From NCBI RefSeq assembly GCF_947487575.1, contig NZ_CANKXG010000008.1, positions 1-64,000 on the forward strand: a DNA stretch of 64,000 bases, in the 5' to 3' direction. The stretch's first letter is position 1. Each line of letters starts with the position of its first letter. The translations under genes were made by a program, and so were the position numbers. The notes under the pieces were generated by a model that was given only the letters and a program-made list of their open reading frames with translations, ran no database searches and was not told the DNA's origin. Source of the DNA: an uncultured Algibacter sp. Lineage in GTDB: Bacteria; Bacteroidota; Bacteroidia; Flavobacteriales; Flavobacteriaceae. Shown here one piece after another: positions 36,420 through 50,811 of this stretch.

Positions 36420-36471
36420 ATTATTCAAAATACTTTGTTTAATGCATAAACACGAAATCTATCAGGTAAGC

Positions 36472-36630
36472 GCGTTAGGGATTGAAACGACATCCTTTTT
36501 AAAAAACTTAATAAAACGAATTTAAGTGTTTACTAAAAACAAACAGATAGCCACGTCGCTCACTCCTAGCTATGACGTTTTAAAAAGATACAGTGGAAAG
36601 CCCGACCCTATATGGGTAACGCCCAAATAA
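36472..36630 (+). repeat. Dispersed intergenic repeat, copy B
   Basis: Starts GCGTTAGGGATTGAAACGAC and ends GCCCGACCCTATATGGGTAACGCCC-AAATAA (positions 36600-36630). The short terminal inverted repeat GCGTTA/TAACGC is present. The middle is not conserved with other copies apart from short patches. Lies between the DUF192 and secDF genes. Confidence 0.75.
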
Positions 36631-45634: not shown

Positions 45635-45642
45635 TATATTTG
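45635..45642 (+). promoter_or_regulatory. -7 box of the gat leader transcript
   Basis: TATATTTG is a perfect TAnnTTTG match. Transcription would start near 45649, about 10 bases before the leader peptide. No TTG -33 element at the usual spacing. Confidence 0.5.
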
Positions 45643-45658
45643 AACTCATTAAAAAATC

Positions 45659-45706
45659 ATGAGAAACAATAACAATAATAATAATTTCAATAATCCTAAT
45701 GTTTAG
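45659..45706 (+). CDS. Asn-rich leader peptide of the gatC-gatA-gatB/aspS operon
   Basis: Sixteen codons: ATG, AGA, seven Asn codons in a row, TTC, two Asn, CCT, Asn, GTT and TAG, encoding MRNNNNNNNFNNPNV, ten Asn of fifteen residues. The context before the ATG is A-rich, typical for starts in this phylum, which rarely uses Shine-Dalgarno pairing. The stop lies 4 bases before the antiterminator arm and 29 bases before a strong terminator. The product is not expected to act as a protein; ribosome movement through Asn codons would report Asn-tRNA supply to the downstream genes for tRNA-dependent Asn synthesis. Confidence 0.85.
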   Translation: MRNNNNNNNFNNPNV

Positions 45707-45766
45707 GGTGCGGAAGGTTATTGTTTAAAATATATAAAGCCTTCCGATATCGGAAGGCTTTTTTTT
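45707..45766 (+). promoter_or_regulatory. Transcription attenuator (terminator/antiterminator switch)
   Basis: Arms: region 2 CGGAAGGTT (45711-45719) can pair with AAGCCTTCCG (45738-45746) as an antiterminator; the latter is also the left arm of the terminator (45736-45748 with 45749-45761, then T to 45766). Region 1, AACAATAAC in the leader codons (45665-45673), is complementary to GTTATTGTT (45717-45725). A ribosome stalled on the Asn codons leaves region 2 free to antiterminate; one that reaches the stop covers it and the terminator forms. Mechanism inferred from classical amino-acid operon attenuators. Confidence 0.82.
45736..45766 (+). terminator. Attenuator terminator hairpin
   Basis: Perfect 26-base palindrome AAAGCCTTCCGAT/ATCGGAAGGCTTT followed by T to 45766. 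It lies upstream of the gatC-like gene and after no complete gene other than the leader, which is why a regulatory role is the best reading. Confidence 0.92.
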
Positions 45767-45809
45767 GAGACCATTTTAAAAGCGTCTTTATAATAAAAAA
45801 TCAAAAAAG

Positions 45810-46076
45810 ATGAGCAAAATTATGACAGTCGACGTATTGTCGAGTATTAAAGGAGCACAGCCATCCGAGGCTGTAAACAAGTTATTTGAGGTTATTAAAA
45901 ATGCCAACACAACAAATAATAACGCTTTCAATAATCACAATAACGCATTGTCTTTAAATGATTTAAGAGACGATGTGGTTATAGATAGTTCTGATACAGA
46001 AAAACAAATCATTATTGAAAACTTCCCAAAAGAAAAAAATGGCTATTTGGTAGTTTCTAAAGTTATAGAAGAATAA
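45810..46076 (+). CDS. gatC: Divergent GatC-like subunit with an Asn-rich tract
   Basis: 88 residues. The C-terminal part fits GatC: LRDDVV (52-57), then IENFPKEKNGYLVVSKVIE (69-87), matching the family's LRxDxv and naPxxxxgyfxVPkVie. The N-terminal helical half of typical GatC is hard to recognise, and residues 31-50 carry ten Asn in twenty. GatC clamps GatA and GatB together in the tRNA-dependent amidotransferase. It sits 2 bases before gatA. The tract might make its own synthesis sensitive to Asn-tRNA shortage; this is speculation. Start and frame are clear. Confidence 0.72.
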   Translation: MSKIMTVDVLSSIKGAQPSEAVNKLFEVIKNANTTNNNAFNNHNNALSLNDLRDDVVIDSSDTEKQIIIENFPKEKNGYLVVSKVIEE

Positions 46077-46078
46077 TT

Positions 46079-47479
46079 ATGAGCTCGCAGATATATAAAA
46101 TTCATCAGCAATTGATGAACAAAGACATTACTTGTACCGCGCTGGTTCAAGAAAAATTAAACTTACTACAACAGAACACTCATAATACGGTTAATACCCT
46201 ACTAGATACTTTAGCACTTGATTTGGCCGCCAAAGTAGATGCAAAAATAGCTAACGGAGAAACTATTGGTTTACTGGAAGGTATTCCTTTCGGGATTAAA
46301 GATGTGTACATGGTTCAGGGTACATATACTACAGCAAGTTCAGATTTGCTTAAAAACTACAAATCGGCTTACACCGCAACAGCAATTCAAAAATTATTGG
46401 ATGCTGGCGCTATACCGTTAGTAAAAGAAAACTGTGATAGTTTTGGTCACGGTTCTTCTTCCGAAAACACCATTTTTGGTGCCGTTAAAAACGCTATTAA
46501 CCCCGATTTAGTTGGTGGTGGTTCTAGTGGCGGTTCTGCGGTTAACGTAGCTAAAGATTATACCATTTTTTCTATTGGAGGAGATACTGGTGGTTCTGTT
46601 CGTCAACCAGCAGGTTACAATAATGTATATGGTTTAAAACCTACATACGGACGTATTTCGCGTTACGGATTAATGGCTTACGCATCATCAACAGATTGTG
46701 TGGGCCCTATTGCAAAATCAATCGAAGATATTCGCATTGTGCTAAATGTTATGAGTGGAAAAGATATTAAAGATCAAACGTCTTACGTTTCCGCGGAAAT
46801 AACTCAAGAGGCTATTTCAACTACTGATAATATAAAAACAGTTGGGTACTTTAAGAACTTTATTGAAACAGATGCTATTGATGCAAAAATCAAATCTGAT
46901 TTCTTAGAAACAATAGAAAAAATAAAAGCCAAAGGTATTCAAGTAAAAGCTTTAGATTTCTTTGAATCTGAAACTTTAGTTTCTACCTATTATACATTGG
47001 CCATGGCTGAAACCGCGTCTAACCTTTCTAGATTAGATGGTACAAATTATGGTAACCGTATTGAATCTGATAATTTAAAAGAAACTTATGCAGTAACACG
47101 TTCTGAGAATTTCTCTGAAGAAACAAAACGCAGAATTGTTGGTGGAAACCAAGTATTATCTCAAGGATTTTCAGATGAAATCTACTTAAAAGGATTAGCA
47201 CTTAGAGATAACATCGCTAACAATTTTGAAAATGATTTTCAAGAAGTAGATATTATCATTTCGCCTGTTACACCAAGTACACCTCCAAAAATTGGAGATA
47301 GTTTAAAAAATCCGCACGCCATGTATTTATCTGATGCCTATACGGTTGGTTTTAGTTTAGGGCAACTACCTACACTAACAATTCCTCAAGGGACTACAAC
47401 AGGCTTACAAATTACGGCTGCAAAACATAATGACGAACTCGTTTTGAAGTTTGCTAACTTCTTAAAAGACACGATATAA
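46079..47479 (+). CDS. gatA: Asp-tRNA(Asn)/Glu-tRNA(Gln) amidotransferase subunit A
   Basis: Amidase-signature subunit that releases ammonia from glutamine or asparagine, 466 residues. The Ser-cisSer-Lys centre is visible: GIPFGIKDVY (Lys) and VGGGSSGGSAVNVA followed by GGDTGGSVRQPAGYNNVYGLKPTYGRISRYGLMAYASS. C terminus with SPVTPSTPPKIGD and LGQLPTLTIPQG is normal. Its stop overlaps the next start by one base (TAATG). Confidence 0.95.
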   Translation: MSSQIYKIHQQLMNKDITCTALVQEKLNLLQQNTHNTVNTLLDTLALDLAAKVDAKIANGETIGLLEGIPFGIKDVYMVQGTYTTASSDLLKNYKSAYTATAIQKLLDAGAIPLVKENCDSFGHGSSSENTIFGAVKNAINPDLVGGGSSGGSAVNVAKDYTIFSIGGDTGGSVRQPAGYNNVYGLKPTYGRISRYGLMAYASSTDCVGPIAKSIEDIRIVLNVMSGKDIKDQTSYVSAEITQEAISTTDNIKTVGYFKNFIETDAIDAKIKSDFLETIEKIKAKGIQVKALDFFESETLVSTYYTLAMAETASNLSRLDGTNYGNRIESDNLKETYAVTRSENFSEETKRRIVGGNQVLSQGFSDEIYLKGLALRDNIANNFENDFQEVDIIISPVTPSTPPKIGDSLKNPHAMYLSDAYTVGFSLGQLPTLTIPQGTTTGLQITAAKHNDELVLKFANFLKDTI

Positions 47480-50400
47480 TGGAACTAGAACAATTAAACG
47501 ACTTGCTTAAAAAGCACGAATTAGAGTTAGTAATCGGTCTGGAAACACACGTTCGATTAAATACAAAAACAAAGTTATTTTGCTCTTGTGCTAATCAGGA
47601 AACAGAGCAACCAAATCAAAATATTTGTTCTGTTTGTACAGGGCAAATGGGGGTTTTACCAGCTATTAATAAAGAAGCTATTAATAAAGCGATTTACTTT
47701 GGAAAAGCAGTGAAATCAACTTTTGAAAACGAAGTAATTTCTTGGGATAGAAAACATTATGAATACCCAGATAATCCAAAAAATATTCAGATTACGCAGT
47801 TTCACAACCCTGTGATTCCTGATGGTTCAGTATCTTGTTTCCGAAATGATGGCTCCCAGTTTACGGTAAACTTAACTCAAGTGCATATAGAAGAAGATGC
47901 AGCAAAATTAATGCACGAAAAGAAGGTATCTTTAGTTGATTTTAACAAAGCAGGTGTACCACTTATCGAGATTGTTACCGAACCTTGTATTCGCCATATA
48001 GAAGATGCTTCAACCTATGCACAATACATTCAACGTATTGTTCAGAATTTAGGAATTTCTGAAGCTAACCTTGAAAAAGGCGAATTCAAATCGGATGTTT
48101 CAGTGTCGCTCCGTAAAAAACACGATTATAATTTAAATCCACGTACCGAAATAAAAAACTTAAACTCGTTTAAGTTTATGGTTGAGGCTTTAAAAGAAGA
48201 AGTTGAAAAACAACTCAACTATTTCTTAGAAAACAAGACTTTTAGACCAGACCAAACTACGGTGTTATGGGATGCTGAATTAAAGCAAACCAAAACCATG
48301 CGTAAAAAAGAGTTTGAAGCCGATTATCGTTTTATTTCAGAGCCCGATTTACCTTTTGTGAGCATAAAAGAGGTGGTTGAATCTATTGATGTCGATTTAA
48401 GCACGCTTCCTTTTGCAGTAGAACGCATCTTAATTAAAGGTGGAGTTCTACCGCAAGACGCAAAGTTTTTTACAGCCGACTCATTACGCTCTGAAACGTT
48501 TGTAGCAATTAACAACGTTATTCAAGACCCATCGTTTGTTGCAAAAACATTAGTTAATAATATTGACGCTGAAGCTTATGGTGATATTCACAGAATTGAA
48601 CATCTAATTGAAATTTTTCAGTTGTTCAAAGATGAAAAAATCACATCAGTTTTAGTTCAAAACGCCATAACATCCTATTTAAAAGATAGAGACTTTAACT
48701 ACAACCAATATTTTGAAGATAACACGATTTCAGAATCTCAAATAAAAGATGCGATTGCAAAAGTTATTGCAGAAAATGAAGCGGTTGCAAATGACATTAT
48801 AGCTGGTAACCAAGGAAAAGCAGGAATTCTGGTTGGAAAAGTTATTGGTATTATCGGAAAAGGTGCTTCAGGAAAAGTTATTCGTGAAGGGATTTTAAAT
48901 GCGCTTGCAGGAGAAGTTAAAAGTCAAGAGACAAAAGGCAAAAGTGACGCTCCAATAACAAATAACCAACAACCAGTAACCAAACAAGAAGAAGTTTTAC
49001 CACAGATTCCTATTGTTATAAAAGACGAATACAGAACACACGTTATTTCTGAAATCTCAGATGATAATATTTCCGAAAACGTAACGCTTTCTGGATGGAT
49101 TTCAAGCGTGCGCGACCACGGAGAACTGATATTTATTGATTTACGCGATTCAAGTACACAGATGTTTCAGGTACGTTTAAGTCGAGAATCGTTTGCTAAT
49201 TTAGATGAGTTGGTAAAACTAAAACCAGAATCGGTTATTACGGTATCTGGAACTATTGTGCAACGTAAAGAAGATGATTATAACGCCGCTTTAAGAACAG
49301 GTGAAATTGAAATGGAAGCCAAAGATTTAGAGATTCTAAACCTTTCTAAAACCCTACCTTTTGAAATTAAGCGTGCAACAAAAACGAATGAAAATGTACG
49401 TTTTCAATATAAATATTTAGACCATAGAAATAATGATGTACGCAGAGTAATTGTTAACCGACATAAGGTTATCAAAATGATGCGTGATATTTTAGACGAG
49501 CAAGATTTCCTGGAAATTGAAACACCTATTTTAAGTGCAGGAACTGATGAAGGCGCTCGTGAATTTATTGTACCTACTCGTAAACAAGTAGGTTCGTTTT
49601 ATACCTTACCACAGGCACCTCAGCAATTCAAGCAAATGTTGATGGTTAGTGGTTACGAGAAGTATTTCCAAATTGCCCGCTGTTTTAGAGATGAAGATTC
49701 TCGTGGCGATAGGCAACCAGAATTTACACAGTTGGATATTGAGATGGCATACGCTAGCATGCAACAAATCATTGATTTGAACACAAACATGTTTAATGGG
49801 ATTGTTGAGAAAATATATGGTAAAAAATGGATTTTACGCCCGTTTGAAGTGCTAACCTATAAACAAGCCATGGACGATTATGGTTGTGATAGACCAGATT
49901 TACGTTTTGGTTTAAAGCTCCAAGACATTACCAACATTGTTAAAGATACCACCTTTCAAGTATTTAGTAAACCTATTGACGAAGGCGGTATTGTAAAGTG
50001 TATTAAAGTTTCTGCAGAAGAACAAGGCAACAAACGTTTATCAAAAGGGCAAATTGAAAAGTTAACCGCATTGGCACAAAGTCATGGTTTAGGAGGCTTA
50101 GCATATATTATCGTAAATGAAAACGATTTGCAATCGCCAATTATTAAATTTTTAGGCGAAGAAATTGCCGCAGGCATTATAAAAACAACAGATGCTAAAG
50201 TAGGAGATATTGTGTTCTTTTCTGCTGCAGATTATGCAACTGCTAATAAAGCCTTAGATGCAGTGCGTCAAGAATTAGGTAACATGTTACGTTTAATCAA
50301 TCCTAAGGAACTAAGACCTGCTTGGGTTATTGATTTCCCTATGTTTGAAAAAACAGATGAAGGCCGTTGGACATTTACACACAATCCATTCTCTATGCCT

Positions 50401-50811
50401 GCTATTTATGATATTGATAAACACATGAATGGTAAAGAAGATGAAATTGGAAGCATCATTGCACAACAATACGACCTTATTTTAAATGGTTACGAAATTG
50501 GCGGTGGCTCAGTACGTGCGCACAAACCAGAAATTCTGGAAGCTACTTACAAAAATATGGGCTACAATAAAGACGAGATGATGAAGAGTGTTGGCACTAT
50601 GCACAAAGCCTTTCATTATGGTGCACCTCCACACGGTGGTATTGCATGGGGCGTGGATAGATTAATGATGATTTTAGAGAAAAAAGGATCCATTAGAGAA
50701 GTGATGGCTTTCCCGAAAACAGGAACCAGTGAAGACTTACTCTTTGGAGCACCTTCTCAATTATCTGATAAAAAGGTGGAAGAAATGAATGTAAAGGTGA
50801 TGAGGAAATAA
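47479..50811 (+). CDS. gatB-aspS: GatB-aspartyl-tRNA synthetase fusion
   Basis: One open frame of 1110 residues. GatB part (about 1-480): LVIGLETHVRLNTKTKLFCSC, zinc cysteines C..C and CSVCTG, and a YqeY tail ending GKGASGKVIREGILNALAGE. A polar linker (about 481-514, many Gln and Lys) follows. AspRS part (from about 517): anticodon-binding OB fold with SGWISSVRDHGELIFIDLRD, motif 2 RDEDSRGDRQPEFTQ, the GAD insertion typical of bacterial AspRS, and motif 3 GVDRLMMIL. H547, in RDHG, equals His31 in AspRS numbering, a mark of nondiscriminating enzymes that charge both tRNA(Asp) and tRNA(Asn). Confidence 0.93.
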   Translation: MELEQLNDLLKKHELELVIGLETHVRLNTKTKLFCSCANQETEQPNQNICSVCTGQMGVLPAINKEAINKAIYFGKAVKSTFENEVISWDRKHYEYPDNPKNIQITQFHNPVIPDGSVSCFRNDGSQFTVNLTQVHIEEDAAKLMHEKKVSLVDFNKAGVPLIEIVTEPCIRHIEDASTYAQYIQRIVQNLGISEANLEKGEFKSDVSVSLRKKHDYNLNPRTEIKNLNSFKFMVEALKEEVEKQLNYFLENKTFRPDQTTVLWDAELKQTKTMRKKEFEADYRFISEPDLPFVSIKEVVESIDVDLSTLPFAVERILIKGGVLPQDAKFFTADSLRSETFVAINNVIQDPSFVAKTLVNNIDAEAYGDIHRIEHLIEIFQLFKDEKITSVLVQNAITSYLKDRDFNYNQYFEDNTISESQIKDAIAKVIAENEAVANDIIAGNQGKAGILVGKVIGIIGKGASGKVIREGILNALAGEVKSQETKGKSDAPITNNQQPVTKQEEVLPQIPIVIKDEYRTHVISEISDDNISENVTLSGWISSVRDHGELIFIDLRDSSTQMFQVRLSRESFANLDELVKLKPESVITVSGTIVQRKEDDYNAALRTGEIEMEAKDLEILNLSKTLPFEIKRATKTNENVRFQYKYLDHRNNDVRRVIVNRHKVIKMMRDILDEQDFLEIETPILSAGTDEGAREFIVPTRKQVGSFYTLPQAPQQFKQMLMVSGYEKYFQIARCFRDEDSRGDRQPEFTQLDIEMAYASMQQIIDLNTNMFNGIVEKIYGKKWILRPFEVLTYKQAMDDYGCDRPDLRFGLKLQDITNIVKDTTFQVFSKPIDEGGIVKCIKVSAEEQGNKRLSKGQIEKLTALAQSHGLGGLAYIIVNENDLQSPIIKFLGEEIAAGIIKTTDAKVGDIVFFSAADYATANKALDAVRQELGNMLRLINPKELRPAWVIDFPMFEKTDEGRWTFTHNPFSMPAIYDIDKHMNGKEDEIGSIIAQQYDLILNGYEIGGGSVRAHKPEILEATYKNMGYNKDEMMKSVGTMHKAFHYGAPPHGGIAWGVDRLMMILEKKGSIREVMAFPKTGTSEDLLFGAPSQLSDKKVEEMNVKVMRK

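Follow-up and report, generated by a model that had tools for sequence, protein, structure and literature searches.

In the classical design for the control of amino acid operons, a leader peptide that is rich in the regulated amino acid is combined with a terminator switch. The His_leader (RF00514), Thr_leader (RF00506) and Phe_leader (RF01859) families of Rfam are of this type, and the same layout, i.e., an Asn-rich leader and a predicted terminator/antiterminator switch, was found in front of the gatC-gatA-gatB/aspS operon of an uncultured Algibacter sp., in a stretch of 64,000 nucleotides that is called the window below. In contrast to the His, Thr and Phe leaders, the amino acid is Asn, and the genes that would be controlled make Asn on tRNA. 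No Rfam family reached its gathering score on the element; the only matches were sub-threshold matches of leader and sRNA families, including the three leader models named above. In the literature searched, which covered subscription journals thinly, no Asn leader peptide or attenuator was described, in agreement with what an initial annotation of the sequence had stated. Judged from sequence and computed folds, the element is very probably a ribosome-mediated transcription attenuator specific for asparagine, and thus a known kind of regulator with a new specificity. If so, asparagine joins the amino acids that are sensed by ribosome-mediated attenuation, and a tRNA-based amino acid pathway is controlled by its own product, charged tRNA-Asn.

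The closest described case of control is found in Clostridium acetobutylicum, in which, according to passages of two papers that refer to it (Saad 2012, 2013, via PMC4206432 and PMC4052509), a T-box controls the operon for tRNA-dependent amidation. As in that operon, the state of tRNA-Asn would control a GatCAB transamidation operon; in C. acetobutylicum the tRNA binds the riboswitch, whereas in the flavobacterial element a ribosome would read a translated leader. A T-box or riboswitch was rejected as an explanation of the element, because no T-box was found at gathering score, and the 24 matches that lie between 45600 and 45830 with E values of up to 1 include none either. The part consulted of a T-box survey lists none in seven Bacteroidetes/Chlorobi genomes (PMC2494555).

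Concerning the pathway, passages of PMC4206432 ascribe tRNA-dependent asparagine synthesis to Deinococcus, Thermus and Bdellovibrio, and count the Bacteroidetes among the clades that have AsnRS, GlnRS and GatCAB and no Asn synthetase. With the three genera, as far as they are portrayed there, the genomes with the operon share AsnRS, GlnRS, GatCAB, an AspRS that charges tRNA-Asn (here predicted), the lack of AsnA/AsnB and a U1-A72 tRNA-Asn. Unlike in these genera, the second AspRS is of the bacterial type and fused to GatB, and the operon has the putative Asn attenuator.

Leader, arms and terminator upstream of gatC

The features of the element and of the operon in the window are as follows:

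45635..45642, + strand: promoter motif match TATATTTG, read from the sequence, matching TAnnTTTG
45659..45706, + strand: leader ORF MRNNNNNNNFNNPNV with TAG stop, from the sequence and a comparison of 77 distinct leaders
45664..45673, + strand: arm 1, AAACAATAAC (Asn codons), partner 45717-45726, from the fold
45685..45688, + strand: UUUC (end of an Asn codon and Phe codon), partner GAAG 45713-45716, from folds
45693..45709, + strand: stop-codon hairpin AUCCUAA/UUAGGGU, from folds
45711..45717, + strand: arm 2a, CGGAAGG, 5′ arm of the predicted antiterminator, from sequence, folds and alignment
45717..45726, + strand: arm 2b, GUUAUUGUUU, complementary to Asn codons, from sequence and folds
45740..45746, + strand: arm 3, CCTTCCG, common to antiterminator and terminator, from sequence, folds and alignment
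45736..45766, + strand: intrinsic terminator with an 11-bp stem and a 4-nt loop (45736-45761) and eight T (45759-45766), from sequence and fold
45810..46076, + strand: gatC, Pfam PF02686, 24.2 bits (cut-off 23)
46079..47479, + strand: gatA, Pfam PF01425; NCBIfam gatA 432.2 bits, under the equivalog cut-off of 481.1
47479..50811, + strand: gatB-aspS fusion, NCBIfam gatB (TIGR00133, NF004012) and aspS above cut-off

Direct reading verified the leader ORF of the initial annotation from its ATG (45659-45661) to its TAG (45704-45706), with ten Asn in fifteen residues. As had also been claimed, four bases (GGTG, 45707-45710) separate the stop codon from CGGAAGG (45711-45717), CGGAAGG is complementary to CCTTCCG (45740-45746) in the terminator arm, and AACAATAAC (45665-45673) is complementary to GTTATTGTT (45717-45725). 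The terminator had been described as a perfect 13-bp stem followed by eight T. The eight T are present, and AAAGCCTTCCGAT/ATCGGAAGGCTTT reads as a perfect palindrome of 13+13. Folded into a hairpin, however, it yields 11 pairs around a 4-nt loop, and the leading AAA pairs with three of these eight T. The fold of 45648-45768 (-32.1 kcal/mol, z = -5.34, equalled by 0 of 200 dinucleotide shuffles) contained arm 1:arm 2b, UUUC:GAAG, the stop-codon hairpin and the terminator. The arms of the earlier scheme were thus recovered, and the scheme had to be extended, since the predicted anti-antiterminator also uses UUUC:GAAG and a CCUAA/UUAGG hairpin. The z-score, together with the recurrence in 44 of 66 operon loci (see below), places the element above chance. 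The Asn run alone is rare, yet not enriched: five AAY codons in a row are found at just four distinct sites across the 3.5-Mb genome (6 matches, overlaps included), and the reversed pattern matches 5 times.

The gatB-aspS fusion is the sole GatB match of the window genome. Like the AspRS-GatC fusion family NF009460 it joins an AspRS to an amidotransferase subunit; unlike in that family the subunit is GatB, and the window protein scored 477 bits versus a cut-off of 1379. It comprises 1110 aa, and NCBIfam offered the AspS-GatC fusion family and no GatB-AspS one. The His of an RDHG motif presumably marks the non-discriminating type of AspRS. The fused AspRS domain has RDHG, as has the Asp/Asn enzyme of PDB 4wj3, and the stand-alone AspRS of a genome of the same genus has RDKG.

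Three minor observations concern GatC and the window. GatC contains an Asn-rich stretch in its middle (NANTTNNNAFNNHNN, window 45900-45944), which is kept in most of 12 aligned sequences. Weak GatC-like matches (E 1.9e-4 and 7.7e-4) were obtained at loci L015 and L016 of two same-genus genomes, where they sit within open frames of 630 and 652 aa. At 36457-36611 the window has a match to the Rfam Flavo-1 RNA, barely over the gathering score.

Conservation of the element in the Flavobacteriaceae

A GatC protein search gave a match in 14 of 60 relatives and in 59 of 397 Flavobacteriaceae genomes, and pooling of both searches yielded 66 distinct operon loci that were read. A leader with an FNN(P/S) motif, a bipartite arm and a terminator was present at 44 of them, in 26 genera, and the element was absent from the other 22. 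The claim of an attenuator in front of gatC-gatA-gatB/aspS is supported by this recurrence of leader, arms and terminator. In named genomes, 80 loci were kept out of 209 relatives found, the nearest GatC relatives being uncultured Algibacter genomes. The element was present at 60 of these loci (57 by pattern, 3 variants by eye), and the leader-bearing genera with named strains include Algibacter, Polaribacter and Tamlana. The two locus sets overlap, and by pattern they contain 77 distinct leaders. All 77 end with TAG, encode 14-17 aa and have 6-10 Asn; the in-frame start is not independent evidence, because the start codon was used in selecting the leaders. When the 397 genomes were scanned with a model trained on the 44 loci, 37 matches had E <= 1.3e-14 (next best 5.3e-7). 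All 37 adjoin gatC, so there is no strong copy of the element elsewhere in these genomes. A GatC+GatA tree with 110 distinct rows, 76 of them with leader, requires no fewer than 13 changes of the leader label; 9 of the 146 loci had too short a GatA and were left out.

Much of this conservation could be due to RNA pairing. Codons -4 to -1 before the Phe codon are nearly fixed by pairing, codon -2 being looser (Asn in 59 of 77), and the conserved Phe, Pro and TAG follow from UUUC:GAAG pairing and the CCUAA/UUAGG hairpin at the stop codon. It could therefore be argued that the 5′ leader is constitutive, its leaky terminator doing no more than tune the amount of operon mRNA, and that selection on RNA structure favoured A-rich sequence, which happens to read as an Asn run. 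Pairing may indeed explain the Phe, Pro and TAG codons and AACAAUAAU, the in-frame start was a criterion for picking leaders, and codon choice does not maximise pairing. A tuning of codon choice for the stability of the 1:2 hairpin was unsupported (mean z 0.10; the shuffle was run at 68% AAT, and AAT makes up 81% in the leaders and 62% in six window genes). Against a merely structural role, Asn occupies codon -6 in 72 of 77 leaders and codon -5 likewise in 72, with T or C as third base (AAT/AAC 61/11 and 39/33, respectively), and leaders in front of asnA and asnB (see below) differ in sequence, yet are Asn-rich as well. At codon -7 the share of Asn falls to 39 of 77 leaders. On balance, a constitutive leader is improbable, and the Asn codons argue for an attenuator that is read by ribosomes.

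The positions of promoter motifs were consistent with cotranscription of leader and operon. TAnnTTTG, which we take to be the Bacteroidetes -7 promoter motif, lies 10-23 nt upstream of the leader ATG at 44 of 44 leader-bearing loci, as a raw count, and between T-run and gatC it was found at 0 of 44. In the window, transcription would start just downstream of 45642. The gap between T-run and gatC is 17-21 nt at 35 of the 44 loci, where the operon is almost surely transcribed through the terminator, and 39-183 nt at 9, among them the window with 43 nt. Among the sigma-70-like sites around the element, the top-scoring one, TTGAGA-18-TATAAT (11/12 matches, 45765-45794), is situated between terminator and gatC. 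A second transcription start may lie there, and this site slightly lowered our confidence in the attenuator. Such a site, and a strict TAnnTTTG within 90 nt of gatC at 11 of the 22 loci that lack the element, would fit a separate small RNA or small-protein gene that has its own terminator and leaves gatC to its own promoter. Sigma-70-like sites were not above chance in the region (29 versus 30.8 expected from shuffles), and the short gaps, together with the absence of TAnnTTTG from all 44 gaps, make a separate gene the most improbable of the explanations considered. Transcription of leader and operon from one promoter is thus the preferred reading.

Among the weaker matches of the model (E > 1e-14; more than 100, of which 20 were fetched), 9 were located before ilvD-like genes, 1 before asnA, and 10 resembled ordinary terminators. 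The 9 loci (L099, L102, L103, L105, L107 and L111-L114) have Ile/Val-rich leaders and a CCTTCC terminator, with gene names and leaders assigned by eye. Their layout is that of the Asn element, and at one of them an aminotransferase-like gene stands first, followed by the ilvD-like gene.

Predicted switching between terminator and antiterminator

Several of the features expected of a ribosome-mediated attenuator were found in the sequence, namely an Asn-rich leader ORF, a terminator before the first gene, and genes of asparagine metabolism downstream, and the folds added an exclusive antiterminator with a 5′ arm that a ribosome at the stop codon covers if 11, 12 or 15 nt are masked, not if 9 are. 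We infer the following mechanism. When Asn-tRNA is plentiful, the ribosome would reach the TAG and cover arm 2a (GGAAGG), so that the terminator 3:4 forms. When Asn-tRNA is scarce, the ribosome would stall in the Asn run and mask arm 1; arm 2a would then pair with arm 3, and the polymerase would enter gatC-gatA-gatB/aspS. The fused AspRS would load Asp on tRNA-Asn and GatCAB would amidate it to Asn-tRNA, and in cells that lack a canonical AsnB the same amidation would yield asparagine itself.

The computed folds of the 77 leaders agree with this scheme for the translated leader. The pairing of arm 2a with arm 3 comprises 6 bp in 69 folds and 5 bp in 8, and each of the 44 loci folds with an arm 1:2 hairpin, its register on the Asn codons varying. 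Median computed energies were -13.1 kcal/mol for 1:2, -11.5 for the antiterminator and -15.9 for the terminator, and the minimum fold of the full-length RNA had the terminator in 77 of 77 cases. The antiterminator formed in 75-77 of the 77 folds when the A site was placed anywhere between codons -7 and +3 (masks to A site +11, +12 and +15 nt). Placing the A site on the stop codon abolished the antiterminator in all 77 for these same three mask lengths; a mask of 9 nt left it unblocked in 67 of 77. In untranslated RNA up to arm 3, the antiterminator was in the minimum fold of 69 of 77, and the minimum was a median 2.0 kcal/mol lower than before arm 3, which renders an off state without translation doubtful.

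The initial annotation had proposed to look in relatives for conservation and for covariation of the pairings. Conservation was found; covariation was absent from the gat antiterminator, in which 43 distinct rows had 100% of cells paired and no two-sided change. The arms are near-invariant, and thus covariation is uninformative here. Coordinated arm changes occur between two asnB leaders of one genus, which change in step in arm 2 (A to G), arm 3 (T to C) and arm 4 (A to G).

Asparagine supply and Asn leaders before other genes

The distribution of asparagine genes revealed a pathway swap. Of the 397 family genomes, 283 had a match to the N-terminus of canonical AsnB (first 77 residues), and all 59 operon genomes lacked one. 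With the draws for the GatC and AsnB counts taken as identical and relatedness left out of account, the hypergeometric probability is about 9e-39. Four genera (g7, g66, g132 and g152) contain species of both kinds. A set of 80 genomes, of which 66 have the operon and 14 do not, included 75 with AsnRS above cut-off and 1 with AsnA. All of 20 genomes checked for GlnRS have it; GatB was present in each of the 14 that have the operon, without exception as the fusion, and in 0 of the 6 others. The initial annotation had described the operon as one for enzymes that make Asn-tRNA. This part is retained, yet because AsnRS occurs as well in 75 of the 80 genomes, the operon is probably a route of asparagine synthesis and not a mere supply of Asn-tRNA. 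It seems to replace asparagine synthetase, and the gene content fits tRNA-dependent asparagine synthesis as in Bdellovibrio. Replacement of the synthetase also seems to explain why flavobacteria with AsnRS and GlnRS retain GatCAB and a second AspRS. A role as Gln-tRNA amidotransferase is unlikely, given GlnRS in 20 of 20 genomes and GatB only in fused form. Genomes differ naturally in whether they have the operon or AsnB, an attenuator or no attenuator, and AsnRS or no AsnRS, which opens the idea to direct tests.

At the general AsnB cut-off, matches were obtained in 14 of 14 genomes without the operon and in 26 of 66 with it, including the window genome, and these other AsnB-like proteins might make asparagine. 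The two of the window genome are above the general cut-off, and their best score was with an exopolysaccharide amidotransferase model, below its cut-off. An AsnB-like gene of one genome (G365) was dropped, since the stretch taken held no ORF of 400 aa. tRNA-Asn starts with U1, which by eye pairs with A72, in 31 of 31 distinct copies read (33 if the two-locus copies of one genome are counted; the pattern found no match in 3 of 30 genomes). The copies came from both kinds of genomes, and U1 was therefore rejected as a mark of operon genomes.

The leader was present in 43 of 61 genomes with AsnRS versus 0 of 4 genomes that lack AsnRS at >= 99% completeness (G211, G259, G268 and G413; Fisher p = 0.011), an association that is weak because just three genera are involved. 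Shutting the operon off would be harmful where it is the sole source of Asn-tRNA. In one genome of 76% completeness (G301), AsnRS was not seen and the leader was present.

Other asparagine genes have such leaders too: within one genus, three genomes have Asn-rich leaders with terminators upstream of asnA, apparently two leaders in tandem, and 4 of 41 distinct loci read, from two genera, have one upstream of canonical asnB. The 41 are not a fair sample, as they were read from 283 AsnB genomes and 30 were the closest to the query. Further asnB loci among them had an Asn-containing short frame and no terminator (3) or the reverse (2). The identity of asnA was confirmed with NCBIfam at two loci, that of asnB at one. 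One asnA leader and the three asnB leaders from genus g11 gave folds of similar plan; for the fourth asnB leader (L130), no clear antiterminator was found by eye. Before asnS, no Asn leader was seen in the window genome, the one genome inspected.

As any stall before the stop codon frees arm 2a in the folds, the attenuator might respond to a general slowing of translation and not to Asn in particular. This is quite improbable, somewhat more so than a constitutive leader, because Asn-rich leaders precede three unrelated kinds of asparagine genes and, by eye, ilvD-like operons of the same family have Ile/Val-rich leaders of similar layout. Asn-specific attenuation remains the preferred reading. 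A broader and tentative proposal is that Asn attenuation is recurrent in the Flavobacteriaceae before three unrelated asparagine routes (GatCAB+AspRS, AsnA and AsnB), with one shared grammar in which the Asn codons complement the antiterminator, and that it is dropped once the route becomes the sole source of Asn-tRNA. Of the three asnA genomes, G272 and G423 carry canonical AsnB as well, and thus the attenuator need not follow the only route, which lowered our estimate of this proposal to a possibility. The asnA matches of the model scored no better than the Ile/Val ones, and the elements before gatC, asnA and asnB may or may not be homologous.

Upstream of asnA, three loci (L116, L132 and L133) have a second Asn-containing frame with a PPPGGE stretch after the first attenuator. 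At L132 and L133 this second frame is open through its own terminator, which is unlike the classical plan.
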